NCBI RefSeq assembly: GCF_000300515.1
Contig: NZ_AMSI01000007.1
Coordinates: forward strand, 186,001 to 250,000
Reading direction: 5' to 3'
Length of the DNA stretch: 64,000 nucleotides
Origin: Nitratireductor indicus C115
GTDB lineage: Bacteria > Pseudomonadota > Alphaproteobacteria > Rhizobiales > Rhizobiaceae
The translations under genes were made by a program, and so were the position numbers. This document shows, in pieces, positions 7,970 through 54,399 of the stretch (position 1 is its first letter; each line of letters opens with the position of its first letter). The notes under the pieces are model-generated. The model was not told the DNA's origin. It searched no databases and was given only the letters and a program-made list of their open reading frames with translations.

Positions 7970-8004
7970 TCTCTAACCCGCCGCCTCAATGGAACTTGGA
8001 AAAC

Positions 8005-9393: not shown

Positions 9394-9431
9394 CAACTAC
9401 GTATCCTTCTGCAACAGCGACTCACCGCACG

Positions 9432-10465: not shown

Positions 10466-10521
10466 AGCCGCCTGCCAAATCGCGAACGTTCAGAAGCGCC
10501 CACACCGGGAAACGGCCTTGT

Positions 10522-10590
10522 GAGAATTTTTCTCTCCAGCGGAATGGTTCCGTCTGGAAGAACCGCGTTTTGTCGGAGAGAATTGTTCTC
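10522..10590. repeat. Imperfect long inverted repeat between convergent genes
   Basis: The segments 10522-10536 and 10576-10590 are inverted copies agreeing at 12 of 15 positions. They enclose a smaller perfect hairpin (CGGAA-TGG-TTCCG). The structure lies between the 3' ends of the SDR gene and the convergent P1B-4 ATPase and may act as a terminator. The remaining 260-base gap shows nothing else. Confidence 0.4.
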
Positions 10591-10724
10591 TTGTTGCTTG
10601 GCATGGTCATCGCCGCCTTCGGTCGCCATTCGCACTACAGGTTCTTGACCGGCAATCGACACCTGCTGAAGATCGATCGGTTTCCTCATCTACGCGCGTT
10701 TCGAGCGGGATTGCCGTCATCCGG

Positions 10725-12803
10725 TCAAACCCCTGACTGGTATGAAGGCTCTACAGGGCCGGCGTTGGATTGGCGTCGCAGTGAGGTCGCACTGCGCGCC
10801 CGGATCGGGTCGGCGAGTAGCCTGAGGCCGTTCAGCACCACCAGCACCGTGCCGCCTTCGTGTCCGACGACCGCGAGCGGCAGAGGCAGGGCGAAGAACA
10901 GGCTCGAGGCGACCAGAAGCAGCATCATGCCGATGGCGAAAATCAGATTCTGGCGGATAATCCGGTGGGTGCGCCGCGCCAGCCGATGCGCGGCGGCAAG
11001 CCGGGCCATGTCCTCCGACAACAGCGCGACATCGGCCGCCTGCAACGCGACATCGCTGCCCGCCGCGCCCATGGCGATGCCGACATCGGCGCGCGCCAGC
11101 GCGGCGGCGTCGTTCACCCCGTCGCCGACAAAGGCGACTTTCCCATTCCTCGCCAGTTCGCCCACCAGCCGGACCTTGTCTTCAGGCAGCAGATCGGCAT
11201 GGACATGTTTTGCTTCCAGTCCGAGCTCCGCGGCGATCCGCAAGCCGACAGAGCGCCGGTCGCCGGTCATCATGGCGATGGTGCCCACCCCAGCCGCTCT
11301 GAGCGCAGCCAACCCCGCGGCCGAGGTCGCGCGCGGACGGTCGGCGACGGTGAGCGCGCCATAGACCCGATCTCCCCGCCCCAGCCACACCACGGTCTGG
11401 CTGCCGTCCGTCAGCTGCGCAAATTCGGGTGCGTCGAGCGATGCGCCCATGCGCGCGGCCATGCGCGGATTGCCGGCCCAGAGCGGGCCCACGGCATCCT
11501 CCCCCGTAATCCCCTCACTGGGCACGGTTTCCACATCGCGCACCACGGCGGCGGTTATGCCTTTTTCGTCGATGTGGCGGCGGATCGCATCGGCAATTGG
11601 ATGTTCGGAATGCGCCTCGAGACCCGCGATCAATGACAGGAACCGCTCTTCGGCCTGTGCTCCCGTTTCCGACGCCACCACCTGTGTCACCTCGGCCTTG
11701 CCTGTTGTCAGCGTACCGGTCTTGTCGAAGGCGAAGATATCGACATCGGCCAGCGTCTCCAGCGCCGCGCCGCCCTTGAACAGCACGCCGCCGCGCGCGG
11801 CCGCCGCCAATGCCGAGAGGATCGCGGCCGGGACCGATATCACCACCGCGCAGGGGCTGGCCGCGACAAGCAGCGTCGCGGCGCGATAAAGCGCATCCTG
11901 CATCGTCCAGCCAAGCGCGAGGAATATCGCCAAAGCAAGCACCGCACCCACCAGCACCGCGATGGTGTAGCGCTGGCCGAACCAGGCGCTGAACCGTTCG
12001 GACGGAGCGCGTGCGGCCTGTGCCTCTGTCACCAGTTCGATCATCCGCGCCACCGTGCTTTCCGCGACCGGGCGGGTGACGCGGACCACCAGCACGGCGT
12101 TGAGGTTCACCGTGGCCTCAAACACCTTAGCACCCGGGCTTTTGCCGACCGGCATCGATTCGCCTGTGATCGTCGCCTCATCGAGCGAGCCTTCCCCTTC
12201 CGCCACCTCGCCATCGGCCGGCACCCGCGCGCCGGGCCGCAGCACCACCAGATCGCCGGCCACGAGATCGCCCACCGGAACTTCCGTGACGGCGCCCTCT
12301 GGGTCGCGTCTCAGCGCGGTGTCGGGGCGCAGCGCCATCAGCGCCTCGACCGCATGGCGCGCCCGGCCCATCGCCCGCTGCTCCAACGTGGTTGAGAGAC
12401 TGAACAGCGTCAGCAGCACTGCCCCTTCAAGCGCGGCGCCGACCGCAGCGGCAGCAAGGGCTGCCACGATCATCAAAAGATCGATGTCGAGGATCCGCTC
12501 ACGCCAGAGCGTGGTCAGGGCCCGAACCGCCGTCGGCACACCACCGGCCAGATAGACCAGCACGAGGCCGACCGGTCCCCATAGACCGGGGCTCAAAAAG
12601 GCATCGACAGTTGCAAGCGCCATCCCGGCAAGCGTGATGCCGGTCAATGCTGTCATGAAGCGGTCGGAAGAAAGATCGATTTGCAATTTGTGTTCCTGGC
12701 TGTGCCGCGACGGCGGCAGTGGCTGGGGAGACCGGCGATGATGCGCCGGATGGGCTGGCGATCTGTCCGGTCGATCAGGTTCCTGGTCGCTATTCCTTTC
12801 CAT
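10725..12803 (-). CDS. P1B-4-type heavy-metal ATPase (SPC / HEGGT)
   Basis: This membrane metal pump has 692 residues and six core helices. Motifs are TGES (213-216), SPC in the sixth-helix position (316-318), Asp360 in DKTGTLTTGK, GDGVND, and HEGGTVLVVLNGLRLL in the last helix. SPC together with HEGGT defines the P1B-4 class, whose members export Co2+, Zn2+, Cd2+ or Fe2+. A Pro/His/Arg-rich hydrophilic head (about 1-40) has no Cys and may be a loose metal-binding tail. Its ATG overlaps the stop of chrA as TAATG, so the two are translationally coupled. It is unlike the other two P-type ATPases in the window. Confidence 0.92.
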   Translation of the reverse strand: MERNSDQEPDRPDRSPAHPAHHRRSPQPLPPSRHSQEHKLQIDLSSDRFMTALTGITLAGMALATVDAFLSPGLWGPVGLVLVYLAGGVPTAVRALTTLWRERILDIDLLMIVAALAAAAVGAALEGAVLLTLFSLSTTLEQRAMGRARHAVEALMALRPDTALRRDPEGAVTEVPVGDLVAGDLVVLRPGARVPADGEVAEGEGSLDEATITGESMPVGKSPGAKVFEATVNLNAVLVVRVTRPVAESTVARMIELVTEAQAARAPSERFSAWFGQRYTIAVLVGAVLALAIFLALGWTMQDALYRAATLLVAASPCAVVISVPAAILSALAAAARGGVLFKGGAALETLADVDIFAFDKTGTLTTGKAEVTQVVASETGAQAEERFLSLIAGLEAHSEHPIADAIRRHIDEKGITAAVVRDVETVPSEGITGEDAVGPLWAGNPRMAARMGASLDAPEFAQLTDGSQTVVWLGRGDRVYGALTVADRPRATSAAGLAALRAAGVGTIAMMTGDRRSVGLRIAAELGLEAKHVHADLLPEDKVRLVGELARNGKVAFVGDGVNDAAALARADVGIAMGAAGSDVALQAADVALLSEDMARLAAAHRLARRTHRIIRQNLIFAIGMMLLLVASSLFFALPLPLAVVGHEGGTVLVVLNGLRLLADPIRARSATSLRRQSNAGPVEPSYQSGV

Positions 12804-14038
12804 TATGACATTGAGCTTACCTCCAGAATCGCGCCGCCGGCAGCCGCGATCAGCACCACGAGCCAGGGCGGGAATCTCCAGCTCATCAAGGCCACGAAAC
12901 AGGTCAGCGCCAGCGCAAAGTCGCGGGGCGAACCGATCGCGCTGATCCAGAGCGGATCGTAGAGCGCAGCGCCCAGAATGCCGACCACCGCAGCGTTCGC
13001 GCCTGCCATCGGCGCCCGCACGCCGGAGCGTGCGCGCAGTGTGTTCCAGAACGGCAGCGCGCCGACAAGCAGCAGGAAGCCCGGCAGGAAGATCGCAAGA
13101 AGGGCGAGCGTCGCGCCGGCGATCCCGTTCGGGCCGGGTTCGAGCAGCATGCCGAGATAGGCGGCGAAGGTGAATAGCGGCCCCGGCACCGCCTGGGCCG
13201 CGCCATAGCCGGCCAGGAACGCATCGGGCGTGACCCAGCCCGGGCGAACCACTTCGGCTTCCAGCAAAGGCAGGACCACATGGCCGCCACCGAATACCAG
13301 AGCACCGGCGCGATAGAACGCGTCGATCACCGCCAACCCCTGCGCGGGAAACAGCGCCGCCGCCAGCGGTAGGCCGAAGATCAGGATGAAGAACAGGGCC
13401 AGCGCGACTATCCCCGCCTGTCGCGAGACCGGGAAGGGCAGCGCTTCACCCGTCTCTCCCGCCGTGTCCCGGCAAAGCCAGAGCCCGGCAAGTCCACCGA
13501 GCAGAATTGCACCCACCTGGCCCGTCGCGCCCCCGATCAGCACCACCATCAGGACGGCGGCGAGCGCGATCGTCTGGCGTGAGCGGTCGGGGCAGAGCGT
13601 GCGCGCCATCCCCCAGACCGCCTGCGCCACGATGGCCACCGCCACCAGTTTCAACCCGTGGAGCACCCCGATGCCAAGCGGGCCTGAAAACGCCCCCGCT
13701 CCGAGCGCGAACAACAGCAGCAGCAGGGCGGAAGGCAAGGTAAACGCCACCCAGGCAGCCAGCGCACCCACCGGTCCGGCACGCTGCAAGCCCAATGCAA
13801 AGCCGACCTGGCTGGATGCTGGTCCCGGAAGGAATTGGCATAGCGCGACCAGATCGGCATAGCCACGATCCTCGATCCAGCCGCGCCGGGCGACGAATTC
13901 CTCGCGGAAATAGCCCAGATGCGCGATCGGTCCACCGAAGGAGGTGAGGCCCAGTTTCAGGAAGGCGGCCAGAACCTCGCCGGGCGTTCCTTGTCGTTGG
14001 CGCTGAGGCATAACATTCAGCGTGTCATTGGCGGGCAT
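12803..14038 (-). CDS. chrA: Chromate transporter ChrA, long two-domain form
   Basis: ChrA (CHR family) is an inner-membrane chromate efflux protein. At 411 residues this is the usual long form with two tandem homologous halves. The N-terminal half has FLKLGLTSFGGPIAHLGYFREEFV and LCQFLPGPASSQVGFALGL. The C-terminal half has FGGGHVVLPLLEAEVV and GYGAAQAVPGPLFTFAAYLG. The ATG follows CGGAGACATC. It is the first gene of a pair with the P1B-4 ATPase, joined by a one-base overlap, so chromate and divalent-metal export seem to be co-expressed. Regulation is not evident from the roughly 185-base leader that separates it from the LysR gene. Confidence 0.95.
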   Translation of the reverse strand: MPANDTLNVMPQRQRQGTPGEVLAAFLKLGLTSFGGPIAHLGYFREEFVARRGWIEDRGYADLVALCQFLPGPASSQVGFALGLQRAGPVGALAAWVAFTLPSALLLLLFALGAGAFSGPLGIGVLHGLKLVAVAIVAQAVWGMARTLCPDRSRQTIALAAVLMVVLIGGATGQVGAILLGGLAGLWLCRDTAGETGEALPFPVSRQAGIVALALFFILIFGLPLAAALFPAQGLAVIDAFYRAGALVFGGGHVVLPLLEAEVVRPGWVTPDAFLAGYGAAQAVPGPLFTFAAYLGMLLEPGPNGIAGATLALLAIFLPGFLLLVGALPFWNTLRARSGVRAPMAGANAAVVGILGAALYDPLWISAIGSPRDFALALTCFVALMSWRFPPWLVVLIAAAGGAILEVSSMS

Positions 14039-18885: not shown

Positions 18886-19263
18886 ATGACCGCAAGGCCA
18901 CTTTCCCATTCTATCTCCGCAGTTGTGGCGATCGTGTTTGGCCTGGCTACCGTCATTTCGGGCGGCCGCGCGCTCTTCGGCGGCGCTGATATGGGAGCGG
19001 TGGTTCCCTTCGTGCTGTGGTTCAATTTCGTGGCGGGCTTCGCCTATCTGCTGGCAGGGATCGGACTATGGCGCGGCACGGCCTGGGCGCCTGCCCTGTC
19101 CATCGGTATCGCGGCGGCAACGGCCGTGGTCTTCGTTTTCTTCCTTTGGCACGTCTGGCGCGGCGGGGCCTACGAGAGCCGCACGATGGCGGCGATGGTC
19201 CTGCGGCTCGGCATCTGGGTTGCCATTTCGACAGTTGCGGTAAAGATCCGATGGCCACGATAG
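18886..19263 (+). CDS. Small four-helix membrane protein of the exporter operon
   Basis: I do not recognise the family. The protein has about 125 residues with four predicted membrane helices (AVVAIVFGLATVISG, VPFVLWFNFVAGFAYLLAGIGL, LSIGIAAATAVVFVFFLW, MVLRLGIWVAISTVAVK). A GTG at 18868 overlaps the ATPase stop, but the ATG at 18886 has GGAGG five bases upstream and is preferred. Its position as last gene of the TetR/HlyD/ABC operon suggests an accessory role in the same membrane complex. The 119 bases that follow before ackA contain no gene. Confidence 0.7.
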   Translation: MTARPLSHSISAVVAIVFGLATVISGGRALFGGADMGAVVPFVLWFNFVAGFAYLLAGIGLWRGTAWAPALSIGIAAATAVVFVFFLWHVWRGGAYESRTMAAMVLRLGIWVAISTVAVKIRWPR

Positions 19264-19382
19264 TGGTGCGCGACGACTGTGCTGGCGAGTCGACAGGCAT
19301 TCGCTACGTCCAGTATCGCGATATGGCGAAGTTGGATCGAACTAACCTTTGGCAAACCTAACCACTAAATGACAGGGCAACT

Positions 19383-20326
19383 ATGCAGGTACTTGTTTTT
19401 AACGCCGGCAGTTCCAGCCTCAAGTTCGGCATCTTCAGCGTGACGACTGAAACACACGAAGTGTTCAAGGGTTCTTATGAGCGCTTTCGGGCCGGAGGAT
19501 GCGAATGCCGTTTTCGGCATGGAGAAACCGACGAGCGGGGTGCGGTCGAATTCGATAGTCCCAGCGAAGCGCTGAAAGTGGTTCCGGCCGCGCTGAAGCG
19601 TTTCGGGCTCGACGCAATCGACGCTGTCGGGCACAGGATCGTCCATGGCGGCGCAAGGTTTACCTCGCCGACACTGTTAGACGACGAGACAGTCGAGGCC
19701 ATCGAAGCCCTGACACCGCTGGCTCCTTTGCACAACCCGGCGAACTTGGAAGCAGTCAGGCTCTGCCGCGGCCTATGGCCGGACATAAGCCAAGTGGCCG
19801 TGTTCGACACGGCCTTCCACCTCGACAACCCAGCCTTCGCAAACACCTATGCGGTGCCGGCAAGGTGGCGGGATGCCGGTCTGCGCCGCTACGGGTTTCA
19901 TGGTACCTCTCACAAATATGTGGCCGAGAGGGCGGCCCAAGAGATCGGCCGGCCGTTTTCCGACCTCCAACTGGTGAGCATTCATCTCGGCAACGGCGCC
20001 AGCATCTGCGCCGTCAACCGCGGGCACAGCATGGACAGTTCGATGGGCATGACGCCGCTCGAGGGGCTGGTGATGGGTACCCGCTCCGGTGACGTGGACC
20101 CAGGCGCGTTTGGCTTTCTGTCGCGCGAACTTCAGCTTTCGGTGCAGGAGATCGAGGATGCGCTCTATTACGAGAGCGGGCTGAAGGGGCTGGCAGGCTC
20201 GTCCGACATGCGCGACATTGAAGACAGGGCGGCTAAGGGCGACCCCGAGGCCCAACTCGCGATCGAGATCTACGCATACCGCGCCAAAAAGTATGTCGGG
20301 GCTTATGCTGCAGCGATGGGAGGACT
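19383..20326 (+). pseudogene. ackA: Acetate kinase, truncated at 3' end
   Basis: Acetate kinase makes acetyl phosphate from acetate and ATP, or the reverse. The N-terminal phosphate-binding segment VFNAGSSSLKF, DAVGHRIVHGG, DTAFH, YGFHGTSHKYVAERAA, HLGNGASICAV and GTRSGDVDPG are all present. Homology stops at AYAAAMGGL, about residue 314 of a normal 390-400, just before the expected GGIGEN nucleotide-binding motif. The frame then runs about 90 codons through unrelated DNA to 20606, overlapping vapC antisense. Loss of the C-terminal subdomain should abolish activity. The break is the left edge of a foreign segment that continues with a toxin-antitoxin pair and a recombinase. Confidence 0.9.
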
Positions 20327-20476
20327 GTCAATCGCCTCTATACGTTCCAGCTCCGCTTCGGAGAGCCCGAGTTTCAGGCGTTCGTGGACCGCTGGCTCGG
20401 CGTCGCACGCAAATGGGACGAACCCGTTCTTGATCCCGGTCTGCCGGGGATCATTCCACCGGACGCAGCGGATTGA
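20327..20476 (+). pseudogene. C-terminal tail of an unidentified foreign gene
   Basis: Directly at the ackA break, in another frame, a clearly protein-like segment of about 48 codons begins VNRLYTFQLRFGEPEFQ and ends GLPGIIPPDAAD with a TGA at 20474. It has no start codon and no ribosome site, so it is the severed 3' end of a gene whose front was lost at the junction. I cannot name the family. Confidence 0.55.
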
Positions 20477-20882
20477 CGAACTCCAGCCCGGCAAAGTCCT
20501 TCTCGTTGTCCGTAACCACAATACAGTCGTTTGCACCTGCGACAGAAGCGATGATCATGTCGAGAGCGCTGCGCGGGCGGCCAGCGGCCTTGCCGTCCGC
20601 CATTAATCGCGCCCAGATCAGGCCCGCTTTGTCATCGAACGAGAGAATGCGGCCGGCGAACAACTCTTGCGGCCCCTCCGGTCCCGAAAACCAGGCATCG
20701 AGAGCATCGCGCTTCTTGCCGCGTGGCTTTTCGAGAACGCCACGCCGAATTTCTGCGATGGTCAACGAGGCGACGAACAGGTTTTCGTCGCGTTGCTCCG
20801 CCCACCACGCCAGTAGCGATTCCGACGGCTGCGGCTTGACGATGTTGCTGAGGATGTTCGTATCGAGGAGGTAGCGCGTCAC
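20451..20882 (-). CDS. vapC: PIN-domain toxin of a VapBC/FitAB-type system
   Basis: PIN-domain toxins are Mg2+-dependent ribonucleases that cut RNA and stop growth when their antitoxin is lost. The protein has 143 residues and all expected acidic residues: Asp7 in YLLDTNILS, Glu44 in TIAEIRRG, Asp108 in RSALDMIIASVA and Asp125 in IVVTDNEKDF. The FitB-like pattern with SFDDKAGLIWARLMADG is clear. Its ATG overlaps the antitoxin stop by four bases. The 3' end overlaps the foreign gene tail beside ackA. Such modules often stabilise mobile elements, which fits the recombinase next door. Confidence 0.92.
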   Translation of the reverse strand: MTRYLLDTNILSNIVKPQPSESLLAWWAEQRDENLFVASLTIAEIRRGVLEKPRGKKRDALDAWFSGPEGPQELFAGRILSFDDKAGLIWARLMADGKAAGRPRSALDMIIASVAGANDCIVVTDNEKDFAGLEFVNPLRPVE

Positions 20883-21181
20883 AGGTCGACCCGGCGCCCT
20901 TCCTCGCGCGGCCGCGACAGGTCGAGATCGGCGCCGACCAGAGGCGAGCGGCGCAGGGCCGACAGGATGTCCCCAGATTTCGGCGGCTCGCCGGCAACCA
21001 GAGCCTTGATGGTCTGCCGGGCTTCTTCCGCTTCCGGCCCCTCCTCGGCCAGATGCCGGGCAAGCGACCGGATCAGCTCACGGTCGGCTTCCAGCGCCAG
21101 AACCTCGAAGCGCTTGAAGCCACGCTGCGTCAGGCGTGTCCGGTAATTCTCGATCGCTCTCTTCTGTGCGGCATTGCTCAT
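20879..21181 (-). CDS. vapB: Antitoxin partner of the PIN toxin
   Basis: This short protein of about 100 residues lies just before vapC in a four-base overlap, the standard antitoxin position. The frame is open to 21331, but the ATG at 21181 has CGGAGG upstream and starts the recognisable part (MSNAAQKRAIENYRTRL). The N-terminal half resembles a DNA-binding segment (RGFKRFEVLALEADRELIRSLARHLAEEG) and the C-terminal part, ending LDLSRPREEGRRVDL, is the likely toxin-binding tail. Two palindromes lie in its promoter, consistent with autoregulation by the toxin-antitoxin complex. Confidence 0.82.
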   Translation of the reverse strand: MSNAAQKRAIENYRTRLTQRGFKRFEVLALEADRELIRSLARHLAEEGPEAEEARQTIKALVAGEPPKSGDILSALRRSPLVGADLDLSRPREEGRRVDL

Positions 21182-21203
21182 GGCTGGCCTCCGTGTTATA
21201 TAT

Positions 21204-21239
21204 CCTGACATATAGCCGATGTCGGCCTTGTAAACAAGG
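21204..21239 (-). promoter_or_regulatory. Promoter/operator of the toxin-antitoxin pair
   Basis: Two adjoining palindromes lie upstream of the antitoxin: CCTTGT-N2-ACAAGG (21226-21239) and GCCGA-N2-TCGGC (21216-21227). An AT-rich stretch (TATATGTCAGGATATATAA on the minus strand) follows and can hold the -10 element, with TTTACA in the first palindrome as a possible -35. The layout fits the autorepressed promoters of VapBC-type modules. Confidence 0.55.
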
Positions 21240-21442
21240 GATGTCAGCGATGCCACGAGACTCGCACCACAGGCCATTTGTGCAGAAGAATACTGCGCGT
21301 TCCCGCCAGTATTTTCCATATGCTGTGGCACGCCATGCTTCGCCCGAGCGCGACAACGCCGCCGTTGTCGCCCCGGCCGCCGCCAATTATACGGCTTTGA
21401 TTTCAGTTGCTTACGTCAGAAACGCCGGGGATGCTGCAAGTT

Positions 21443-21667
21443 ATGACCTTGCGAGCCCCCGGAAACAAATCCAAGATGACTGGAAGCGAGCGCGAAGCGC
21501 TGCTCGAATCTCTGTTGCTGGAAGAGCCGGAGCTGACGTTCACATCGCGGGGCGATCCCGATCCACGTCTTCTGCGTCTGGTCGATTTCCTGGCTCGTCA
21601 GGCGGCGCGGGAGTGCTACGCCGAGGAAGTTCAGATGATGAAGCGGCGGAGGAAGCGCCCCTCCTGA
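21443..21667 (+). CDS. Small hypothetical protein upstream of serine recombinase
   Basis: This is an unrecognised protein of about 74 residues, Glu/Arg-rich, with the central segment MTGSEREALLESLLLEEPELTF and a basic end MMKRRRKRPS. It lies 19 bases before the recombinase start and on the same strand, so it is probably co-transcribed. The start is uncertain: ATG at 21443, ATG at 21476 or a TTG at 21407 are possible, and none has a strong ribosome site. Its basic tail could mean a DNA-binding or recombination-directionality role; that is a guess. Confidence 0.5.
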   Translation: MTLRAPGNKSKMTGSEREALLESLLLEEPELTFTSRGDPDPRLLRLVDFLARQAARECYAEEVQMMKRRRKRPS

Positions 21668-21686
21668 TGCTTCGGGGAGAAGTGCA

Positions 21687-23354
21687 TTGAAGGTCGCGAT
21701 TTACGCCCGCTATTCGTCCGACAACCAGCGCGAGGCGTCCATCGCCGACCAGTTCCGCATGTGCCGCCTGCGGGCGGAAAAGGAAGGCTGGACGGTCGTC
21801 GAGGAATATTCCGATCACGCCATCTCAGGCTCCAGCATGATCCAGCGTCCCGGCATCCAGGCGCTGATCATGGATTCCGCGCGAGGCCGGTTCGACATGA
21901 TCCTGGCCGAGGCACTGGACCGGATCAGCCGTGACCAGGAAGACATCGCCGGCATCTACAAGCGCATGCGCTATGCCGACGTGAAGATGTTCACCCTGTC
22001 GGAGGGTGAGATCAGCGAGTTGCATGTCGGGCTCAAGGGCACGATGAATGCGCTGTTCCTGAAGGATTTGGCCGACAAGACCCGCCGAGGGCAACGCGGC
22101 CGCGTCGAGGCCGGCAAGTCCGGCGGCGGCAATTCCTACGGCTACGATGTGGTGAAGAAATTCGATGCCAACGGTGAGCCAATCCGGGGTGACCGCACCA
22201 TCAACGAAGCGCAGGCCAATGTCGTGCGCCGCATCTTCCGTGACTATGCGGCTGGCAAATCGGCCAAGACCATCGCCTTTGCCCTGAACAAGGATGGTAT
22301 TCCCGCCCCTTCGGGTGGGCATTGGGGTTTCAGCACCATCAACGGCAATCCGAAACGCGGGAACGGCATCCTTAACAACGAGATGTATGTCGGCAAGATC
22401 GTCTGGAATCGCCAGCGCTTCGTCAAAGACCCGGATACCGGCAAGCGGCAGGCTCGGCCCAACCCGGAAGAGGAATGGGTGATCCAGGAGGCGCCGGAGT
22501 TGCGCATCCTCGATGACGACCTCTGGAACGTCGTGAAAGCCCGCCAAGGCGAAATGCGGACCGAACGGGATGAGAGCGGCATCGCCGACGTCAGCAAGAT
22601 GAACTACCGTCGCCGCCCCAAATACCTGTTCTCGGGTTTGACCAAATGTGCCTGCTGCGGAGGCGGCTACTCCGCCATCTCTCAGAAGCTGATCGGTTGT
22701 TCGACAGCGCGCAACAAGGGCACCTGCGACAATCGAGTCAACATTCGCCGCGACGAGTTGGAAGCCCGCGTGCTGAACGCCCTTCGCACTCGATTGGTCG
22801 ATCCCGAGATGTTCGCCCGCTTCTGCGAGGTGTTCACGCAGGAGATGAACCGTCTGCGCATGGAAGGCCGCGCCGGCATCGCATCGGCCGAAGCCGAGAT
22901 CGGAAAGATCGAGCGCGAGTTGGCGAAGCTGCTGACCGCAATCAAGGCTGGTGGACCGATAGAGGCCATCGTGGAAGACATGAAGCGGCTGGAGGCTCGG
23001 AAGACCGAGCTGGTTACGTTCCTCGCCGAGGCCGACGAGCCGCCTCCACTGCTGCATCCCTCAATGGCGCTCCAGTACCGGAAGCGCGTTCAGCAGTTCT
23101 ACGAAGCCTTGCAGGACGAAGAGGAAGAGAAGCGGATCGAGGCGGCGGACATCCTGCGCTCGCTGGTGGACAAGATCGTGCTGACGCCGGTGGATGGGAA
23201 GGTGGAGATCGACGTTCAGGGCGATCTCGCTGGAATCCTTATGATTTCCGCACAACCGAAAAACCCCGCCGGAGAGCGGGGTGGATCGCAAGTAAAGATG
23301 GTTGCGGGGGCTCGCAACCAACGATTCCTACGCCTGGTCGAGAACACAATCTGA
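21687..23354 (+). CDS. Large serine recombinase, full length
   Basis: Large serine recombinases insert and excise mobile elements by double-strand cleavage through a catalytic serine. This 555-residue protein has the resolvase domain (about 1-150) with Ser10 in IYARYSSDNQREASI and LDRISRDQEDIAG, the recombinase domain (about 160-300, ending in LNNEMYVGKIVWNRQRFV), a zinc ribbon (KCACCGGGYS ... CSTARNKGTCDNR) and a long coiled-coil-like C-terminal region. The start is TTG after GGGGAGAAG. The last 30 codons run through two hairpins at 23264-23320. It appears intact and may have mobilised the adjacent defence genes. A headless relative lies at 52.4-53.3 kb. Confidence 0.93.
   Translation: MKVAIYARYSSDNQREASIADQFRMCRLRAEKEGWTVVEEYSDHAISGSSMIQRPGIQALIMDSARGRFDMILAEALDRISRDQEDIAGIYKRMRYADVKMFTLSEGEISELHVGLKGTMNALFLKDLADKTRRGQRGRVEAGKSGGGNSYGYDVVKKFDANGEPIRGDRTINEAQANVVRRIFRDYAAGKSAKTIAFALNKDGIPAPSGGHWGFSTINGNPKRGNGILNNEMYVGKIVWNRQRFVKDPDTGKRQARPNPEEEWVIQEAPELRILDDDLWNVVKARQGEMRTERDESGIADVSKMNYRRRPKYLFSGLTKCACCGGGYSAISQKLIGCSTARNKGTCDNRVNIRRDELEARVLNALRTRLVDPEMFARFCEVFTQEMNRLRMEGRAGIASAEAEIGKIERELAKLLTAIKAGGPIEAIVEDMKRLEARKTELVTFLAEADEPPPLLHPSMALQYRKRVQQFYEALQDEEEEKRIEAADILRSLVDKIVLTPVDGKVEIDVQGDLAGILMISAQPKNPAGERGGSQVKMVAGARNQRFLRLVENTI
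23264..23320 (+). repeat. Double hairpin in the 3' end of the recombinase gene
   Basis: The first hairpin is CCCCGC-N6-GCGGGG (23264-23281). The second is TGGTTGCG-N6-CGCAACCA (23299-23320). Both lie inside the coding frame near its end. The same arrangement, with the same second-hairpin sequence and loop length, recurs at the 3' end of the other recombinase (53209-53272), so it is a conserved module and not chance. Confidence 0.7.
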
Positions 23355-23435
23355 CGCTGACGGTGTAGCCAGCCTTCGGATATTTTTCTAACCGAGCCTT
23401 TTGCCAGAACTTCGCCTTCGAACTCCGAATGCGAC

Positions 23436-24056
23436 CTAAATTCTGAAAAGCTCCCTTAGCCGCTCCAGGGTAAGTCCTTGTCGCGCGATCTCCTTTGCCA
23501 AGAATGGGTACCTCCGTTCGAGAAAATTCAGCGACACATCGTTGGTGGCGTAAGCCATTAGGATATTACAACGCTCTTGCACGTAATTGTCATCTTGGTT
23601 AAGGCGCAAAGAGTTAATTGTATTTGCAATTTTTCTCTTCAATTCTTTATCAAGCTCGGGATTTGGACGGATAAGACAAGCGGGTAAGTCAATAAAAAAC
23701 CAATCGTCTTGTACGTGGAATGGGTCTATTATGTCAGTCAGATCGCCCTTTGATGTATTTATTTTCCCGCCTGCCAACCGAAAATTGTTCCATTCATATG
23801 CAAGATCTGGTCTGCCATTTTCACCGGCCTTGGGTAGGAAGTGATCGACCGTGCCTCGGTCTGGAAGGTACATAGCGGTGTATGCGCAGACGCCTGAATA
23901 GGCCTCGTGAAGCTGAGAAAGCGCTCTACTCCAGTAGGCATACTTCTTGAATTGCTTTGAAGTGGGCTTTGGACAGGATGTGAGGAATGCGGCGCCAGGT
24001 TTTCTGACCTCATCGTCAAAACCCACGTATTCCGGTTGAAAAACTACGCCGATCAT
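23436..24056 (-). CDS. HNH endonuclease-like protein of a PtuAB-like pair
   Basis: This 206-residue protein has an HNH-type nuclease core: a single Cys in SGVCAYTAMYL, then Asp71-His72 in TVDHFLPK, Asn90-Asn91 in LAYEWNNFRLA, and Asn100 in KINTSKGD. The spacing matches the HNH proteins that accompany AAA ATPases in Septu (PtuB) and some retron systems, where the nuclease cuts DNA or tRNA on phage sensing. Its start overlaps the stop of the AAA ATPase by four bases, so the two are translationally coupled. The usual second Cys pair of zinc-stabilised HNH proteins is not complete here. Codon use is AT-richer than the flanking genes. Confidence 0.75.
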   Translation of the reverse strand: MIGVVFQPEYVGFDDEVRKPGAAFLTSCPKPTSKQFKKYAYWSRALSQLHEAYSGVCAYTAMYLPDRGTVDHFLPKAGENGRPDLAYEWNNFRLAGGKINTSKGDLTDIIDPFHVQDDWFFIDLPACLIRPNPELDKELKRKIANTINSLRLNQDDNYVQERCNILMAYATNDVSLNFLERRYPFLAKEIARQGLTLERLRELFRI

Positions 24057-25921
24057 ATCTTTACACCATGCTGCTCAGCAAAATAGAGCCACCGCGGCCA
24101 AAATTTATCGTCGTTAGCAAGCTGCGATTTGAGCCGCTCTGTGATCGCCGCGACATCACCGGAGCTCGGATTTTCGGCCAGCTGGAGGGCCTTCGCCCGC
24201 TCGATTGTCTCTTCAGCTTCTCTTGATCTGGCGTGACGTAGTCCAAACAACGGAGAGGTAAGCCAACCCGAGGCATCGCCATATTTTACAAACGGCGTTT
24301 CCTCGAGCTTGACCGTCGGTCCCACGCCATGAAGATGGTAAAGAACATCGATGGAGGTGTCGAAGCTCGCCTCCATCGAGGCTAGTATCATTGGGGAATG
24401 GGTAGCCGCGATCATTTGTACCGCTAAATCGCTACTCAGAAGCTCTCCAACGCTCATGAGTGCAGGAAGGACTATCCTTTGCCACTTCGGATGAAGATGT
24501 GCCTCGAGTTCATCCACGATAACCATCATCCGGCGAAGCGGAATTTCACCCATCTGCTTCGCGGCAAGCTCATGCTCTTGCCATGACCAAATGATGAGGT
24601 AAGCCAAGAGTAGCACTCTCTGCACGCCAGAAGATGCGTGAGTTACTGGCACGGTGTCGTAACGGTGCCGAATGGTAGGGATATCTCGAGGTTCGTCTGG
24701 AATTCGAACCGGCTCCCCTGGCGTCAGAGTGCCTAGATCCTCGGGAGACAGCCTTTTAAGTACCGCCGCAAATTGATCGAATGTCTTCCGATCAATAGAG
24801 GTCTGCCACTTGATCCAATCTCTTATTAGCCCCTCAATAGTTCCTGGACGCCCGTCCCACAACTCCTTCGCCGATAAGCTATTGGATATCGATGACTTCC
24901 TGTTGAACCTGCTACGTACAGGATCGGCAAACGCGAAGGAACCGTCAGCGCGGGAAAAGATCGCAATCGCCTCAACTGTCGCCGCTTCTTTCGGCCGTAC
25001 CCACGTAAAGCTCTTCCTATCATACTTAGCCTTGAAACTTACCATCCTTCCTGAGCTTCCGCTTAAGGAGTAATCCACCTCTGATACCACCGTTGGATTA
25101 TCGAGTTGCGGAAGCGCTTCGCGATCAGCCCAGCTGCCAGTCGCTGCCCACCAGGCAAAGTCGAGCAGAAACGATTTACCTAAGCCATTATCGCCGGTGA
25201 TAACGCTAAGGCGCTGCCCAAAATCAAGTTCCATTTCGCGGGCTGGCCCAGCGTTGCGCAACCGTAGCGACTTTATGGTTCGACCACCTTCAGCTTTTGC
25301 GTCAGGCGGAGGCGGTAATTCGCGCGTAATTGCCGTCATCGCGAGCGGCTCAAATGAAAATGCACCTTCAAAGGCCAGAACATCCTCCATCATCCTGATA
25401 GAGAACAGTCTTTCCTTCTCGGCTTCATTTATCTTGTATTCAGAGAAAAATAATTCAACAAGTTCCTCGTAGTTGCTGACGCTACCTACGTCTGTATCCT
25501 TATAAAGCCACACCGCCAATGCGTCTGCGGCAACGTTAGATGGGAATTTTTTCTCTTCCAGGACGGTCGTAATTCGATCAAGATACTCGCGCGAAAAGCC
25601 CCATTTCGGGGTCCCTCTGGGATGTTCAAACACCGATGCGAACGTCTGCGTATTGACTGTCTGTAAACCTGTTGACGGATATCGTTGTTTGACCCACGAC
25701 GAAGCGCTTTTGAAAGGCTGGAAATAGTAGGAGCTACGATGATCAAGCCGGTGATGGCCATCAAGATGCTCTTCGGTGAGTTTGTCCAGGCTTAAAGCGT
25801 CTAAAGAGCCAACACTGAGCCCGTAATGCTTGCATGCAACAAAAGTGATGCCAATGAACGGATGTACATTGGCGCGAAGAATGGCGATAGCATGAAGCAC
25901 GGCTTCGGCTGTTAGATACAT
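24053..25921 (-). CDS. AAA/SMC-like ATPase (PtuA/OLD-like) with N-terminal extension
   Basis: This 622-residue protein holds an ABC-type ATPase of the AAA_15/AAA_21 kind found in defence systems. Walker A is ITGDNGLGKSFLLDF (243-250), the signature is HASSGVQRVLLLAYL (428-440), Walker B with D-loop is MMVIVDELEAHLHPKWQR (465-482) and the His switch is IAATHSP. The first 215 residues form a separate region I cannot assign (LDGHHRLDHRSSYYFQP and similar), which standard PtuA proteins lack. It lies 29 bases after the methyltransferase and overlaps the HNH gene, so three minus-strand genes probably form one transcript. Its likely role is to sense invading DNA or damage and to gate the HNH partner. 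Confidence 0.82.
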   Translation of the reverse strand: MYLTAEAVLHAIAILRANVHPFIGITFVACKHYGLSVGSLDALSLDKLTEEHLDGHHRLDHRSSYYFQPFKSASSWVKQRYPSTGLQTVNTQTFASVFEHPRGTPKWGFSREYLDRITTVLEEKKFPSNVAADALAVWLYKDTDVGSVSNYEELVELFFSEYKINEAEKERLFSIRMMEDVLAFEGAFSFEPLAMTAITRELPPPPDAKAEGGRTIKSLRLRNAGPAREMELDFGQRLSVITGDNGLGKSFLLDFAWWAATGSWADREALPQLDNPTVVSEVDYSLSGSSGRMVSFKAKYDRKSFTWVRPKEAATVEAIAIFSRADGSFAFADPVRSRFNRKSSISNSLSAKELWDGRPGTIEGLIRDWIKWQTSIDRKTFDQFAAVLKRLSPEDLGTLTPGEPVRIPDEPRDIPTIRHRYDTVPVTHASSGVQRVLLLAYLIIWSWQEHELAAKQMGEIPLRRMMVIVDELEAHLHPKWQRIVLPALMSVGELLSSDLAVQMIAATHSPMILASMEASFDTSIDVLYHLHGVGPTVKLEETPFVKYGDASGWLTSPLFGLRHARSREAEETIERAKALQLAENPSSGDVAAITERLKSQLANDDKFWPRWLYFAEQHGVKI

Positions 25922-25950
25922 ATGCCCGTTATGCCTTCTAAGAATTGCGG

Positions 25951-26958
25951 CTATTCCAAGTCCAACTCGTCTTCAGCTATGAGTTGCTTAATCTGGTCGA
26001 TCATCAAATCGCAATATTCCTTTTTGGCATCGATACCTATCACGCGAAAACCGTGCTTAAGCGCAAATACCAGCGAGGTTCCACTTCCCGCAAACGGATC
26101 CAATACCACACCTCTGGGTGGCGTTGTCGTCAGAATTGGAATACGAACCAACTCTTCTGAGAAGCGGGCCTTATGTCGGCCCGTCTGCCCCCTCACCGGC
26201 GCTATCTCCCAGGTATCTAGTGGCGGCAGAACAGTGCCTGTTTCGGATGTCCGCCCCACGGCATTCTTATCGAAATAGTACCATCTCTCCTTTACAAAAT
26301 GGAAAACGTACTCATGGGACATTGAACACCGGTCACGCACTTGGTCCGGTATCGGATTAGGCTTTACCCAAACATTGTCGTTTCGAACAATCCAATTACG
26401 ATCTTGCATTTCTATAGCAAATCGATGGGGAATCAAAAGTAGCTGCTTGGGAACACACCATTTGCCGTCACCTTTTTTGTCTTGTGGGCGGATACCAAAG
26501 CGCCGCGCTGATTGCTTTGCTTCCCCACTTCGATGTTCACCTTTACCGCTCCAGTACGTATCCCCGATATTGACCCAAAGACTTCCGTTGTCAGCGAGCA
26601 CAGAACCCGCGCTTTGAAAAACGTCGGCAAGAGTGCTGATAAATTCCGAGGGGTGCGCTTCTAATCCGATCTGGCAATCAACTTCATAATCACGCTGCCC
26701 GTAAAAGGGTGGCGAAGTAACAATGCAGTTCGCCTGAACGCCTTCTGCAGCAAGAAGCGACAAAGCTTCACGCACGTCCATATTGAGCACGATGGCAGTC
26801 TCGTCGGCGTAAGCCGCAGCGGCTTTTAGTCGCTTTGAGCTAAACGCATCTTCGGACATTACCTGAGGATGCATGGCCTCGTTTGCACGAGTGGGGGGAC
26901 GACTTTCTTCGGGTAAATCGACCAACTTCAGTTTGGCTCTTTTGTTGCTGCGCGTCAT
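25951..26958 (-). CDS. DNA methyltransferase, beta class (N4-cytosine or N6-adenine)
   Basis: This DNA modification enzyme has 335 residues. Motif IV TSPPFYGQRDY (81-91) comes before the target-recognition region, and the S-adenosylmethionine motif VLDPFAGSGTSLVFA (285-299) is near the C-terminus, the beta-class order. SPPF at motif IV is commoner in N4-cytosine enzymes, but N6-adenine cannot be excluded. It stands divergent to the Z1 helicase across 248 bases and just upstream of the ATPase/HNH pair. No restriction endonuclease of a classical type II kind is adjacent, so the methyl mark probably serves as self-label for the neighbouring multi-gene system. Confidence 0.88.
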   Translation of the reverse strand: MTRSNKRAKLKLVDLPEESRPPTRANEAMHPQVMSEDAFSSKRLKAAAAYADETAIVLNMDVREALSLLAAEGVQANCIVTSPPFYGQRDYEVDCQIGLEAHPSEFISTLADVFQSAGSVLADNGSLWVNIGDTYWSGKGEHRSGEAKQSARRFGIRPQDKKGDGKWCVPKQLLLIPHRFAIEMQDRNWIVRNDNVWVKPNPIPDQVRDRCSMSHEYVFHFVKERWYYFDKNAVGRTSETGTVLPPLDTWEIAPVRGQTGRHKARFSEELVRIPILTTTPPRGVVLDPFAGSGTSLVFALKHGFRVIGIDAKKEYCDLMIDQIKQLIAEDELDLE

Positions 26959-27206
26959 TTTGAATCACAAGTTATTGAAATGTCTTCAGCGAACATAGCG
27001 GCTAGACCCTGCGGGCGCGAGACCTGAAGTGGGTTTTAAACAGGTGCGATAAATATTCACGGTCGTCGATCGAATGGGAAATTTCGAGCACTCCAGCAGC
27101 GATCTTCAATCGACAAGAAGGTCAGCCAGTCAGCGCTAATTCAACCTGTTGACGAGTTGCATCTCAGCGATGAAACTAGATCCAGGAGCTAGGGGATCGA
27201 ATCGTA
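26959..27206. promoter_or_regulatory. Divergent promoter region of the defence island
   Basis: These 248 bases separate the methyltransferase (minus) and Z1 (plus) starts and must hold both promoters. The sequence is AT-richer than the window average. I see no strong palindrome and no small regulator gene. A CAGGAGCTAGGGG stretch at about 27183-27195 is the likely ribosome site of the Z1 gene. Confidence 0.5.
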
Positions 27207-29051
27207 ATGTCTTTCGATATCAACAATTTTTTGAATAATGCACCGTCATCGCATCAATATGAAGGTCAGCTTGAGCGACTACGAACCGCTGGGAAAGACG
27301 TGGAATGCATCGAAATCGCAGTGCGCGGTGCAGTGGCGAATCTATCCTCGAAAGCCACTCGTTCGTTCGTCGTCTATGGTGAGCCGCAAAGTGGCAAGAC
27401 CGAAATGATGATATGCCTAACAGCAAAGTTGCTGGATCAAGGACACACCTTCATTCTCCACCTGCTGAACGACAGCGTCGACCTGCTCGGTCAAAATCTC
27501 GGTCGTTTTAAGACGTCGGGCTTGGCCCCAGCCGCCCGCAATTTTTCAGAGATTCTCGACCCTACTATCCCGGTAAAAAGCGGAAGGCATGTTATTTTCA
27601 GCAAAAAAAATGCCAACGACCTCCGAAAACTTATCGACAAAATTGGGAGTGTAGAGGGCATCGTTGTAATAGATGACGAAGCAGACTATGCTTCTCCCAA
27701 TTCTAAAATCAATTCCGGAACCAAAACCAGAATAAATGAACTCATAAATCAGATTCTTGGTGAAACCGGGATTTATATTGGCGTGACGGCTACACCAGCC
27801 CGACTTGACCTGAATAACACTTTTCAGAATGACAGCCACCTCTGGGTCGATTTCCCGCCTCACTCCGCTTACACCGGCCAAGACGTATTCTTTCCGTTAG
27901 ACAATAAGGTTGATTTTTCGCTTCAGCTCTTACCGAACAGCGGAGATGAACCGAAATATGCAAGAAGCGCTTTATTCAGATTTCTTGCGAATGTAGCTTA
28001 TCTCAATAAGTATGTTAACAATTCTGAAGAAAACTACTCATTTCTTGTTCACACGAGCGGAAAAAAGACTGATCATAAATCGGACTGGTCGGTAATAAAT
28101 TCTGCGCTAAATGATCTTCAGGATCCGAAATCATCCCGGTTTGAAAAGTATGTTAAAGAAATTTGGGACGTCATCTCAACACGGTATCCAGACGCCGATG
28201 TGGACGAATTAACCCGGTATGTACTAAACAACATTACCAGAAACTCCCTTATAATAATAAATAGCGAACGCGATTTTAGCCTTCGCGGCGCTTCCGCGAC
28301 GAATCCGAGTAGTCTTTTCACAATAATTATAGGCGGCAATATTGTTTCACGGGGAGTAACGCTTGAAAATCTACTTTCAATGTTCTTTACACGTGACGTT
28401 CGCCATAAGATCCAGCAAGATACCTATATTCAGCGGGCACGCATGTTCGGAAGCAGGGGAGGATATCTTCGCTTCTTTGAACTAACTATTCCCTCCGCGC
28501 TTTATAGTGATTGGCACCGCTGTTTTGTATTCCACCGTTTGGCACTGGATGCGATCCGACAGAAAATGGGCTCCTTGGTCTGGCTTACCGATCAGCGAAT
28601 AGCCGCGGTCTCAAGTTCAAGTATTGATCGTTCTACCGTCGATCTCAATAGGGGTGAAATGTCGTTTGCAATATTTGACCACACAAGAGAGATTGAAAAA
28701 TTAGTTACGTCGGAAAAATCTTCGCTGCAATTGATGGAAGAGCTCTCCCAATTACTGGGAGATCAGAGTTTCCCGAGTTATCTCCGAAAGTATATATTGA
28801 GAACCCTTCCGAAGCAGAGTGCATCCTTGGCCTTTCATCCAACAGGATCGATAGTAAAATACACTGATGCCAACCAAAAACTCATAGAGCGGCGGCGCGG
28901 ATTTATCGGCACCTCTGACCTTCAAAAGGGAAAATATCCTCACGCCATCCATCATTTTAAAATCTACACAAATGGCGAAGGAAGAGCTCGACTATTTTAT
29001 AAATTTGAAGGGAATATTCAGTTCATCAAGAACCTGCGAAATGATACCTGA
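27207..29051 (+). CDS. Z1-domain superfamily II helicase/ATPase
   Basis: Z1 proteins are SF2-like ATPases found in restriction-modification-type operons, where they are thought to translocate or remodel DNA. This copy has 614 residues. It shows Walker A GEPQSGKT (58-65), the Walker B/DEAD-like IVVIDDEADYASP (about 152-164), motif III TATPARLD, and the Z1 hallmark IIIGGNIVSRGVTLENLLSMFFTRD followed by QRARMFGSRGGY with the arginine finger. It is divergent from the methyltransferase and overlaps a 152-residue downstream gene by 11 bases. Its GC content is visibly lower than in the trb genes that follow, which points to recent transfer. Confidence 0.88.
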   Translation: MSFDINNFLNNAPSSHQYEGQLERLRTAGKDVECIEIAVRGAVANLSSKATRSFVVYGEPQSGKTEMMICLTAKLLDQGHTFILHLLNDSVDLLGQNLGRFKTSGLAPAARNFSEILDPTIPVKSGRHVIFSKKNANDLRKLIDKIGSVEGIVVIDDEADYASPNSKINSGTKTRINELINQILGETGIYIGVTATPARLDLNNTFQNDSHLWVDFPPHSAYTGQDVFFPLDNKVDFSLQLLPNSGDEPKYARSALFRFLANVAYLNKYVNNSEENYSFLVHTSGKKTDHKSDWSVINSALNDLQDPKSSRFEKYVKEIWDVISTRYPDADVDELTRYVLNNITRNSLIIINSERDFSLRGASATNPSSLFTIIIGGNIVSRGVTLENLLSMFFTRDVRHKIQQDTYIQRARMFGSRGGYLRFFELTIPSALYSDWHRCFVFHRLALDAIRQKMGSLVWLTDQRIAAVSSSSIDRSTVDLNRGEMSFAIFDHTREIEKLVTSEKSSLQLMEELSQLLGDQSFPSYLRKYILRTLPKQSASLAFHPTGSIVKYTDANQKLIERRRGFIGTSDLQKGKYPHAIHHFKIYTNGEGRARLFYKFEGNIQFIKNLRNDT

Positions 29052-29499
29052 GTACCGACTATTTCATGGGGCTGCCATTTGCGCACTGATCGACCAATCG
29101 CCTTTTGGACTGACAATCGGCCACCTGGGCGCCGATGGGCGCTCAGGATTCTATATCATCAATCAGATAGTTGGGCTCTATATTAAACATTCTACCGCGC
29201 GCCTGACACCGTGGCAGTTCTCTTTCACCGGCCAAAACATTGAACAATTTCTGGAACTGCGCTCTTGTTGCAGAGAGGTGTTCGTGGCGCTTGTTTGCGG
29301 ATGGAACGGCATTGTATGCTTGGATCTCTCGGAGCTCAAAGCGGTTGCAGCAGTAGATGGCACCGAGCTGCCGTGGGTTAGAGTGACACGTCGACCAAAA
29401 AGCATGTTTACCGTCTCTGGTGATTTTGGCGTGTTGAAAACAAAAAAGCGTGACGGATTTATCGATCTTTTTCGGCATCCTGTGTGGGGAGGTATTTGA
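29041..29499 (+). CDS. Uncharacterised 152-residue protein coupled to Z1 helicase
   Basis: I cannot name this family. It starts MIPEYRLFHGAAICAL and has a compact alpha/beta look: GFYIINQIVGLYIKHSTARLTPWQFSF, then VFVALVCGWNGIVCLDLSEL and VRVTRRPKSMFTVSG. The order of a hydrophobic strand, a Lys-His-Ser, and a later LVCG strand with Asp/Glu recalls small nuclease folds, but no nuclease motif can be asserted. The frame is open from 28972; the ATG at 29041 is chosen because it gives only an 11-base overlap with the Z1 gene and starts the conserved-looking part. Translational coupling to Z1 suggests the two act together. Confidence 0.65.
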   Translation: MIPEYRLFHGAAICALIDQSPFGLTIGHLGADGRSGFYIINQIVGLYIKHSTARLTPWQFSFTGQNIEQFLELRSCCREVFVALVCGWNGIVCLDLSELKAVAAVDGTELPWVRVTRRPKSMFTVSGDFGVLKTKKRDGFIDLFRHPVWGGI

Positions 29500-29557
29500 A
29501 GCGGTGCACACGGTCGCATGCGCGGCAGATTGCGAAACTGAAGCTACAAATCTCAAC

Positions 29558-29788
29558 TCACGTATCGTGGATGCGGCGCTTTGTTTTGCTAAATTCGCGG
29601 TCGCTTGCCATGAATCTCTGGACCATCGGCACGATCAGCTTCCCCGGCTCTGGCGGTGACGCCTCCCTTTTCTCTCTCGCCAGGATCTCCGCATAGGCCT
29701 GCAGATCCCGAAACACCGCCGCAGGCAATTCGACAGTGATCTTGACCGGCTTGTCGTCCGGAATGACGGAGAGCTTCAGCTTGGTCAT
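29558..29788 (-). CDS. DUF2274 protein, last gene of the trb operon
   Basis: This 76-residue protein belongs to the DUF2274 family, regularly found directly after trbI in alphaproteobacterial conjugation operons. It has a ribbon-helix-helix look (KLSVIPDDKPVKITVELPAAVFRDLQAYAEILAREKRE), so it may be a small DNA-binding regulator. The start overlaps the trbI stop by four bases. The 58 bases beyond its stop, up to the defence island, contain nothing visible and mark the junction of two foreign blocks. Confidence 0.85.
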   Translation of the reverse strand: MTKLKLSVIPDDKPVKITVELPAAVFRDLQAYAEILAREKREASPPEPGKLIVPMVQRFMASDREFSKTKRRIHDT

Positions 29789-30984
29789 GACGGCTCCTTG
29801 CGTGACACATAGGGCTGCATCATTAGATCGCGATTGACGATAACGCGGACCGGAAACCCCGGCCGGATGGTCAGCGTCGGCTGAATATTGAGCTGCCGAC
29901 CGACGATCTGCTGCCCGACATTAGCGGCCGTCCCTTGCGCGCTTTCGCGGATTGCCTGGGCGATCTGACTTTCCTGGCTGTTGCCGCCGATCTGTGTTCC
30001 AACGCCGAGCAGCGTGGAAAGGGCGGCCGCCTTGAACAACTGCCCCCAATGATAATCCACACCGTCTTCAAGCCCAGAAAACCCTTGCGGGTCGGCGCCG
30101 GGCAAGCGCTCCAGCACGATGGACGTGCCGTTCGGCATGACGACACGGTTCCAGACGAGAAGGACGCGCGACTGGCCGAAGGCGACCTGGCTGTCGTACT
30201 GGCCGATGAGACGTGAGCCCTGCGGAATGAGGAGAGCGGTTCCCGTCGGGCTGTCATAGACGTTTTCGGTGACCTGCGCGGTGATCGATCCCGGCAGGTC
30301 GGACTGGATACCGGTGATTAGGGCGGCGGCAATTACCGATCCGGCCTGCAGGATATAGGACGAGGCTTTTTTCTGCACCCGATCCGGACTGACGGTCTGC
30401 CGATCTGCCTCGGCATTGACGAAGGCGAGCTTGCGGTCCTGCATGTTCTGGACCGCCCCGGCGTCGAGCGCAGGCGTGGTACCAGGCTGCGTCAGCGTAT
30501 TCGGATCGGCAGCATTAGCCTTGCCGTCGAGCACCGGCGCGGTTTCAGCACGCACACCATGACTGTCGGTGAACAGCTTGGCGACCCGTGCCGCCTCGAT
30601 TTCCGCGAGACGCCGTTGTTCATCCGGATCTGCGCGCGGGATCTTAAGCGCAGGTACGGTCACGGGCTTGCCCTCTCCCTGCGCCTTCAGGATCGGCCGG
30701 CCGAGATCGCCGGGAAGTGCCGGCCCCAGCTTCGGAATGGCGGTGTAATCCTTCGGGAGGCTGGCAAGGCCGTCGGCTTCCGTGCGATTGTCGGTACTAT
30801 AGAGTTCGGACGGGGCCTCACCCTTGCGCCGTGCGGTATCGAGGGCAAAGAACAAAGCGGCGGCGATCGCCAATCCGGAGACACCCCCAAGCCCGATCAG
30901 GACTTTCCGGGAGAGGCGCTTGACGCGGGGCGGCTCCGGCCGCAGCCGGAACGCCGCCTTGATATCCTTCTCCCCGGTCATCAA
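29785..30984 (-). CDS. trbI: Conjugal transfer protein TrbI (VirB10-like)
   Basis: TrbI spans the inner and outer membranes and forms the core channel of the conjugative type IV secretion system. This copy has 399 residues: a cytoplasmic head, one membrane helix (KVLIGLGGVSGLAIAAALFFAL, about 27-48), a Pro-rich periplasmic linker, then the VirB10 beta-barrel domain with YILQAGSVIAAALITGIQSDLPG and the antenna region ending RPGFPVRVIVNRDLMMQPY. It overlaps trbG by four bases upstream and DUF2274 by four bases downstream. It appears intact. Confidence 0.95.
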   Translation of the reverse strand: MMTGEKDIKAAFRLRPEPPRVKRLSRKVLIGLGGVSGLAIAAALFFALDTARRKGEAPSELYSTDNRTEADGLASLPKDYTAIPKLGPALPGDLGRPILKAQGEGKPVTVPALKIPRADPDEQRRLAEIEAARVAKLFTDSHGVRAETAPVLDGKANAADPNTLTQPGTTPALDAGAVQNMQDRKLAFVNAEADRQTVSPDRVQKKASSYILQAGSVIAAALITGIQSDLPGSITAQVTENVYDSPTGTALLIPQGSRLIGQYDSQVAFGQSRVLLVWNRVVMPNGTSIVLERLPGADPQGFSGLEDGVDYHWGQLFKAAALSTLLGVGTQIGGNSQESQIAQAIRESAQGTAANVGQQIVGRQLNIQPTLTIRPGFPVRVIVNRDLMMQPYVSRKEPS

Positions 30985-32042
30985 TCGTTCTCCGACGGGA
31001 AGAGTACCGTTCTGCGTTTCGAGGGACGGCCGTCGGTGCGCACGATCCGCACCCGGCGCTGGCTCTCCTTGTCGCCGAGCCTGAGTTCAGCCGCGGCAAA
31101 GAGGCGATCGACGACATAGTAGTTCTGGCGGGCGCGGTAGTTGACGAGTTCGGAATTGCCCGACGCGCCGATGACGAAGAGCGGCGGCATTTCTCCCTGG
31201 GCGATGCCGGAGGGGAATTCGATATATACCTTTTTGCCGTCGTCGAAGACGCGAACGGGCCGCCAGGGGGCGCTGTCGCCCTCGATACGATAGCGGAAAT
31301 TGAGCCTGGCGATATCGACGCCGGCGGCGACCGGCATGGTCTCAGCGGCTTGCGTGTTGCGGCGTTTCAGGGCAATCAGCTGGTCGGCGGGATATTGCCA
31401 GGAGACGGAAGCCATGTAGGTCTTTTCCGTCGAGCGCAGTTCGAGATGATAGGTGCGCAGATTGGTGTTGATGACAAGATTGGTCTCGATGTCGGGACGC
31501 GTCGGTTTCGCAAGAATATGCACCTGTTTGGTGGCGCCCGCGCCGCTTTCCGTATCGCCGATGATCCAGCGCACTGTGTCGCCGGCGGCAACCGGACCGG
31601 AGCCGACCAGTTCCTCTCCGGGCTCCAGCGCGATATCAGTCACCTGCCCAGGGGCTGCATAAACCTGGTAGAGCGCGCCGACGGTATAGGGATAGACCTG
31701 AACGGCATTGATGAAGCCGTCGCGAACCGGCTGCATGCGTGCGGCCGCGTTGGCCGCCGACACCCGGTCCTTCGGGTCCTTGGCTTCCGGCTTCTTCTTC
31801 GCATCCCCAACCGGCTTCAACTGGCCGGGCAGCGGCAGCGGCTTCGGCAGCTCGACGATTTTCACCGGGCCTACCGGATCGGTGATCTTCACTGCCGGCG
31901 CCGCGTCATCATAATTGATTTCTGGCGGGATATATTTGTGGGCGCAGCCGGCAAGCGCCGTTGCCGTCAGCAGCACTGAGCCTAACGTGACCGCCCTGCC
32001 CGGCCGACGTCTGTTCATGGACATTCCTGTTACCCCCGTCAT
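30981..32042 (-). CDS. trbG: Conjugal transfer protein TrbG (VirB9-like lipoprotein)
   Basis: TrbG is the VirB9-type component of the outer-membrane core complex. The product (up to 353 residues) has a signal with a lipobox-like VLLTATALAGC, an N-terminal domain with VQVYPYTVGALYQVYAAPGQVTDIALEPGEEL, and a C-terminal half ending in the VirB9 pattern NYYVVDRLFAAAELRLGDKESQRRVRI. The ATG at 32042 overlaps the trbF stop as ATGA. Two more in-frame ATGs at 32024 and 32018 would also leave the signal intact, so the start is uncertain by eight codons. Confidence 0.93.
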   Translation of the reverse strand: MTGVTGMSMNRRRPGRAVTLGSVLLTATALAGCAHKYIPPEINYDDAAPAVKITDPVGPVKIVELPKPLPLPGQLKPVGDAKKKPEAKDPKDRVSAANAAARMQPVRDGFINAVQVYPYTVGALYQVYAAPGQVTDIALEPGEELVGSGPVAAGDTVRWIIGDTESGAGATKQVHILAKPTRPDIETNLVINTNLRTYHLELRSTEKTYMASVSWQYPADQLIALKRRNTQAAETMPVAAGVDIARLNFRYRIEGDSAPWRPVRVFDDGKKVYIEFPSGIAQGEMPPLFVIGASGNSELVNYRARQNYYVVDRLFAAAELRLGDKESQRRVRIVRTDGRPSKRRTVLFPSEND

Positions 32043-54380: not shown

Positions 54381-54399
54381 CAGAACGCAGGTTATAGAC

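Follow-up and report, generated by a model that had tools for sequence, protein, structure and literature searches.

A DNA methyltransferase linked to a long-form PtuA and PtuB in Nitratireductor indicus C115

Between positions 23,436 and 29,499 of the stretch analysed here (the window: 64,000 nucleotides of Nitratireductor indicus C115, contig NZ_AMSI01000007.1, positions 186,001 to 250,000), five genes form a block of two divergent groups, as the initial annotation had described and our analysis confirmed. Three of the five are a compact, widely shared defence unit in which a DNA methyltransferase (MTase) travels with a phage-defence ATPase and nuclease, PtuA and PtuB. The linkage probably serves to spare the cell's own marked DNA, and the two plus-strand genes give the impression of an independent and optional neighbour. 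The proposal that all five work as one composite system was thus upheld for MTase, PtuA and PtuB, linked in 26 of 26 judgeable loci, and not for the plus-strand pair.

A three-gene unit across genomes

All three genes lie on the minus strand. The first encodes a beta-class N4/N6 MTase (25951..26958; TSPP at 81, DPFAGSGT at 287) and is followed by the gene for a long-form, 622-aa PtuA (24053..25921), composed of an N-terminal extension (residues 1-205, 25307..25921), proposed as a target-recognition domain, and an ABC-type ATPase domain (residues 214-622, 24056..25282; GDNGLGKS at 243, VDELEAHLHP at 469, THSP at 507). Directly downstream, as in Septu, and sharing 4 bp with the ptuA reading frame, lies the gene for PtuB (23436..24056), a putative HNH nuclease of 206 aa with VDH at 70-72 and EWNN at 88-91. 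The initial recognition of a PtuA/OLD-like ATPase paired with an HNH nuclease is borne out by PADLOC, where PtuA scores 1104.7 bits to PDLC00270, the PtuA-family ABC ATPase of Septu, and PtuB 233.8 bits to PDLC00348. Solved PtuA chains in the PDB find their best stretches within residues 420-606 of the PtuA profile, with 8ee4 matching at 1.4e-11 over residues 420-516. The AlphaFold model of the long PtuA (mean predicted local distance difference test 87.2, predicted template modelling score 0.64) has a mostly helical N-terminal domain. The MTase matches Pfam N6_N4_Mtase at 2.4e-37; in the PDB its two highest-ranking matches are to a cytosine-N4 MTase (4.6e-27), with adenine MTases next, so that N4-methylcytosine as its product is a guess.

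A search for PtuA in 385 genomes of the class returned two full-length relatives, both with the MTase upstream and PtuB downstream. We then scanned a collection with one genome per species (84,980 species), using an alignment of the three PtuAs as query, and obtained 27 loci with a long PtuA, two of them members of the query. Wherever the contig reaches, the MTase gene precedes ptuA (26 of 26; locus L083, cut inside ptuA, was left out) and ptuB follows it (26 of 26; L086, also cut, was left out); some of the judgeable loci have only gene pieces (L089, L092). Three complete reading frames are present in 19 of the 27 loci, the other eight being cut or broken, and in these 19 the MTase-PtuA gap ranges from -4 to 56 bp, while PtuA and PtuB overlap by 4 bp in 18. 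The hosts span Rhizobium, Sphingopyxis, Nitrospira, Gemmatimonadota, Lachnospiraceae and Siphonobacter, and the genes around the unit vary among the loci listed. We read this as a compact unit moving between hosts.

In searches that did not require the N-terminal domain, of which part of the matches were read, the MTase accompanied the long PtuA in four of four loci (L060, L061, L146, L147) and the short PtuA in none of 11 (L065, L066, L133-L136, L148-L152; L133, L134 and L136 were judged with annotation, and L149 and L150 look like near copies). The N-terminal domain was not found in short PtuA. The wider MTase family, matched at 1e-40 in 10 of 372 genomes of the class searched by profile (the present one included), exists also without either partner, since among the loci read L117-L122 have neither PtuAB nor the PtuA N-terminal domain next to the MTase. 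PADLOC scores the window genes as Septu PtuA, Septu PtuB and type II MTase, each by itself, which makes the linkage easy to overlook. Our literature search, whose coverage excluded most subscription journals and all bioRxiv preprints, found no paper on an MTase-linked Septu.

An N-terminal domain shared with McrB-like proteins

Residues 1-205 of PtuA, which have no Pfam match, are homologous to the N-terminus of McrB-like proteins adjoining the same MTase family. Locus L064 encodes a 555-residue protein in which this domain (hhalign 2.3e-18; hmmsearch 1.1e-22) precedes an AAA_5 ATPase (1.4e-15), in the vicinity of a related MTase (31.5%) and a 404-residue gene with a very weak PDDEXK_7 match (0.075). 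In five further loci, the viral contig L095 (MTase 60%) and plasmids L128-L131 from Rhizobium, Sinorhizobium fredii, S. medicae and Thauera (MTase 66-72%), the MTase gene comes first, then one for a domain-bearing protein of some 670 residues, then a DUF2357 gene. When ten proteins were searched, the domain matched these at 3e-9 to 5e-5, in L095 mainly over its second half (hhalign 77.7%, 1.9e-5). Scans of three of the five loci (L095, L128, L131) confirmed PDDEXK_7 in each, and so did a scan of L132. The AAA matches of L095, L128 and L131 fall under the Pfam cut-offs; we call these proteins McrB-like on the strength of their resemblance to the L064 protein along both domain and ATPase (E 1e-13 to 3e-6).

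Plasmid L132 of Mycobacteroides abscessus (MTase 64%) carries a domain-like stretch that looks like a gene of its own (6067-6552) between the MTase and AAA genes, matching the McrB-like N-termini of L095 and L128-L131 at 1e-15 to 2e-6 and the PtuA profile weakly (0.009). As a stand-alone gene, this relative of the McrB-like accessory domain would be a separable subunit. Three of the five plasmid operons read have a gene for a HigA-family antitoxin immediately ahead of the MTase (L128 4503-4910, L129 4485-4889, L130 4570-4950), perhaps the operon's regulator.

PtuA and the McrB-like proteins encoded in MTase operons have the domain in common, so that a single MTase family and a single accessory domain, as judged by homology, serve two dissimilar effectors. 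The MTase tree places 10 PtuAB-linked and six McrBC-like-linked MTases intermixed in the window clade (100/97), with 15 other PtuAB-linked MTases standing apart; from this mixture, effectors appear to have swapped MTases. An alternative is that the locus is a plain Septu, with PtuAB sensing generally and the MTase a passenger or addiction gene. Published PtuABs do work without an MTase, on nicked DNA or tRNA-Tyr (PMC11555353, PMC13096335; here and below, papers are cited from partial text), and the short-PtuA loci read lack this MTase. Yet the adjacency holds in all 26 judgeable loci across phyla, with genes that nearly touch, and the MTase tracks the extra domain, which is found again with that MTase family next to another nuclease; we consider a plain Septu unlikely.

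Proposed function and relation to known systems

The MTase is present, linked and intact in its motifs, and may be a cognate, self-protecting enzyme of the restriction-modification (RM) kind. We propose that it would mark the cell's own DNA, so that self is spared, that the N-terminal domain of PtuA would read the unmethylated site, and that PtuA-PtuB would act as effector. The reading step is modelled by analogy on LlaJI, described as a McrBC-like system with MTases whose McrB-like subunit alone sets specificity and whose target is unmethylated DNA (PMC1459862). Were the domain instead to read modified DNA, the MTase would switch the system on or recruit it. McrBC does cut methylated DNA, and specific DNA binding resides in the McrB N-terminus (PMC1459862), but the operon's own MTase would in that case make self DNA the target, and LlaJI, with its MTases, targets the unmethylated form; we hold this reversal to be very improbable.

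Several observations weigh against reading of unmethylated sites by the PtuA domain within a self-contained three-gene unit. The PtuA N-terminal domains form one clade (99/98) separate from the McrB-like domains although the MTases intermix, in a tree whose long branches were flagged by the tool as able to join falsely. If MTases 66-72% identical share a target, partner domains about 20% alike must read that same target, which weakens a simple picture of matched specificity; a domain that simply shared the specificity of its MTase would be expected to track it more tightly. In a distance analysis over 20 loci with the ATPase part controlled, partial correlations between domain and MTase were modest: 0.18 with the MTase middle region, a value reached in 40 of 2000 permutations, and 0.31 with the catalytic part, reached in 1 of 2000. 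With the catalytic part also controlled, the middle region, the expected recognition part, gave -0.26; the catalytic part gave 0.36 with the middle region controlled. PtuB did not co-vary with the MTase (-0.15 and -0.13). Furthermore, residues 1-215 of PtuA matched no PDB chain by sequence up to E 10, and PtuA (52.6 of 500 bits) and PtuB (33.7 of 150 bits) fall well short of the NCBIfam equivalogs, which were made for retron Ec78. Finally, all five genes are found together again in one further rhizobial locus that is synonymously saturated, leaving room for a functional link between the modules.

With Septu type I, the unit shares the PtuA and PtuB families, the gene order and intact ATPase and HNH-type motifs; it differs in its long PtuA (the Walker A lysine is residue 249, against 43 in Septu EcB88; PMC13096335) and in the MTase that accompanies it in every judgeable locus, none of the 26 being a Septu of two genes only. 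Septu type II and group I-A retrons likewise add a third component to a PtuAB effector, but in the window this is an MTase; Rfam gave no match in 19000-31500, and the Pfam scan found no reverse transcriptase among the block's genes. LlaJI-type/McrBC-like RM systems share the MTase family and, in L064, L095 and L128-L131, a homologous NTPase N-terminal domain, but join them to an AAA protein and a PD-(D/E)XK nuclease, whereas the window has an ABC ATPase and PtuB; to LlaJI and McrBC proper the likeness is by analogy only. In the comparison with CglI/NgoAVII, a 152-aa protein stands in place of PLD-B3, for which Pfam gave no match among the block's genes; PLD-B3 restriction proteins were seen in comparison loci L106 (Pfam) and L137 (annotation). 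The block departs from MZA at 38 bits against an MzaC equivalog cut-off of 1500, and the Pfam scan of its genes, with no dedicated search made, gave no GHKL match to the MutL/GHKL partner. No Hma model appears among the PADLOC families listed (at most 25 per protein); the Hma operon (helicase, 5-methylcytosine MTase, ATPase) often adjoins Septu type I according to the PADLOC authors (PMC8565338). A 2026 paper notes that OLD-type ABC ATPases coupled with various nucleases in RM-like systems had been previously reported (PMC12839542).

Self/non-self discrimination by Septu is not one story, as published PtuABs act on nicked DNA or tRNA or are under retron control (PMC12948488), and a widespread MTase-linked branch offers a direct, testable answer for that branch. 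It also suggests that a Septu effector can replace the restriction part in a modification system. If this PtuB branch cleaves tRNA, as some PtuABs do, the result would be an RM system that reads unmethylated DNA and strikes RNA. The fullest version of this picture, a portable recognition domain and MTase joined to two unrelated effectors (McrBC-like AAA/PD-(D/E)XK and Septu ABC/HNH), with methylation-gated abortive infection should PtuB cleave tRNA and with one MTase licensing two effectors in rhizobia, is a long shot.

Surroundings of the unit

An intergenic region (26959..27206) separates the unit from the two plus-strand genes of the second module (27207..29051 and 29041..29499); the alignment to locus L067 stops within it, about 24 bp upstream of the MTase. 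On the other side, a large serine recombinase (21687..23354, plus strand; Pfam Resolvase, Recombinase, Zn_ribbon_recom) flanks the block as context outside the system. Adjoining it are a PIN-domain (VapC-like) toxin gene and, upstream of that gene and sharing 4 bp with it, a small partner (20451-21331, minus strand). Farther left, an acetate kinase open reading frame (19383-20606, plus strand) has a Pfam match that ends at residue 313 (profile position 320 of 392), its C-terminal part appearing replaced as though interrupted near the island edge; it has no relative at E 0.001 among eight same-genus genomes and a 38% similar gene elsewhere in its own genome. To the left of the island, 5618-14038 (minus strand) encodes two E1-E2 (P-type) ATPases, one with a heavy-metal binding domain, a pyridine nucleotide-disulphide oxidoreductase and a chromate transporter. 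A Fic-family protein adenylyltransferase (SoFic-like; 54373-55497, plus strand) lies amid transport and catabolic genes.
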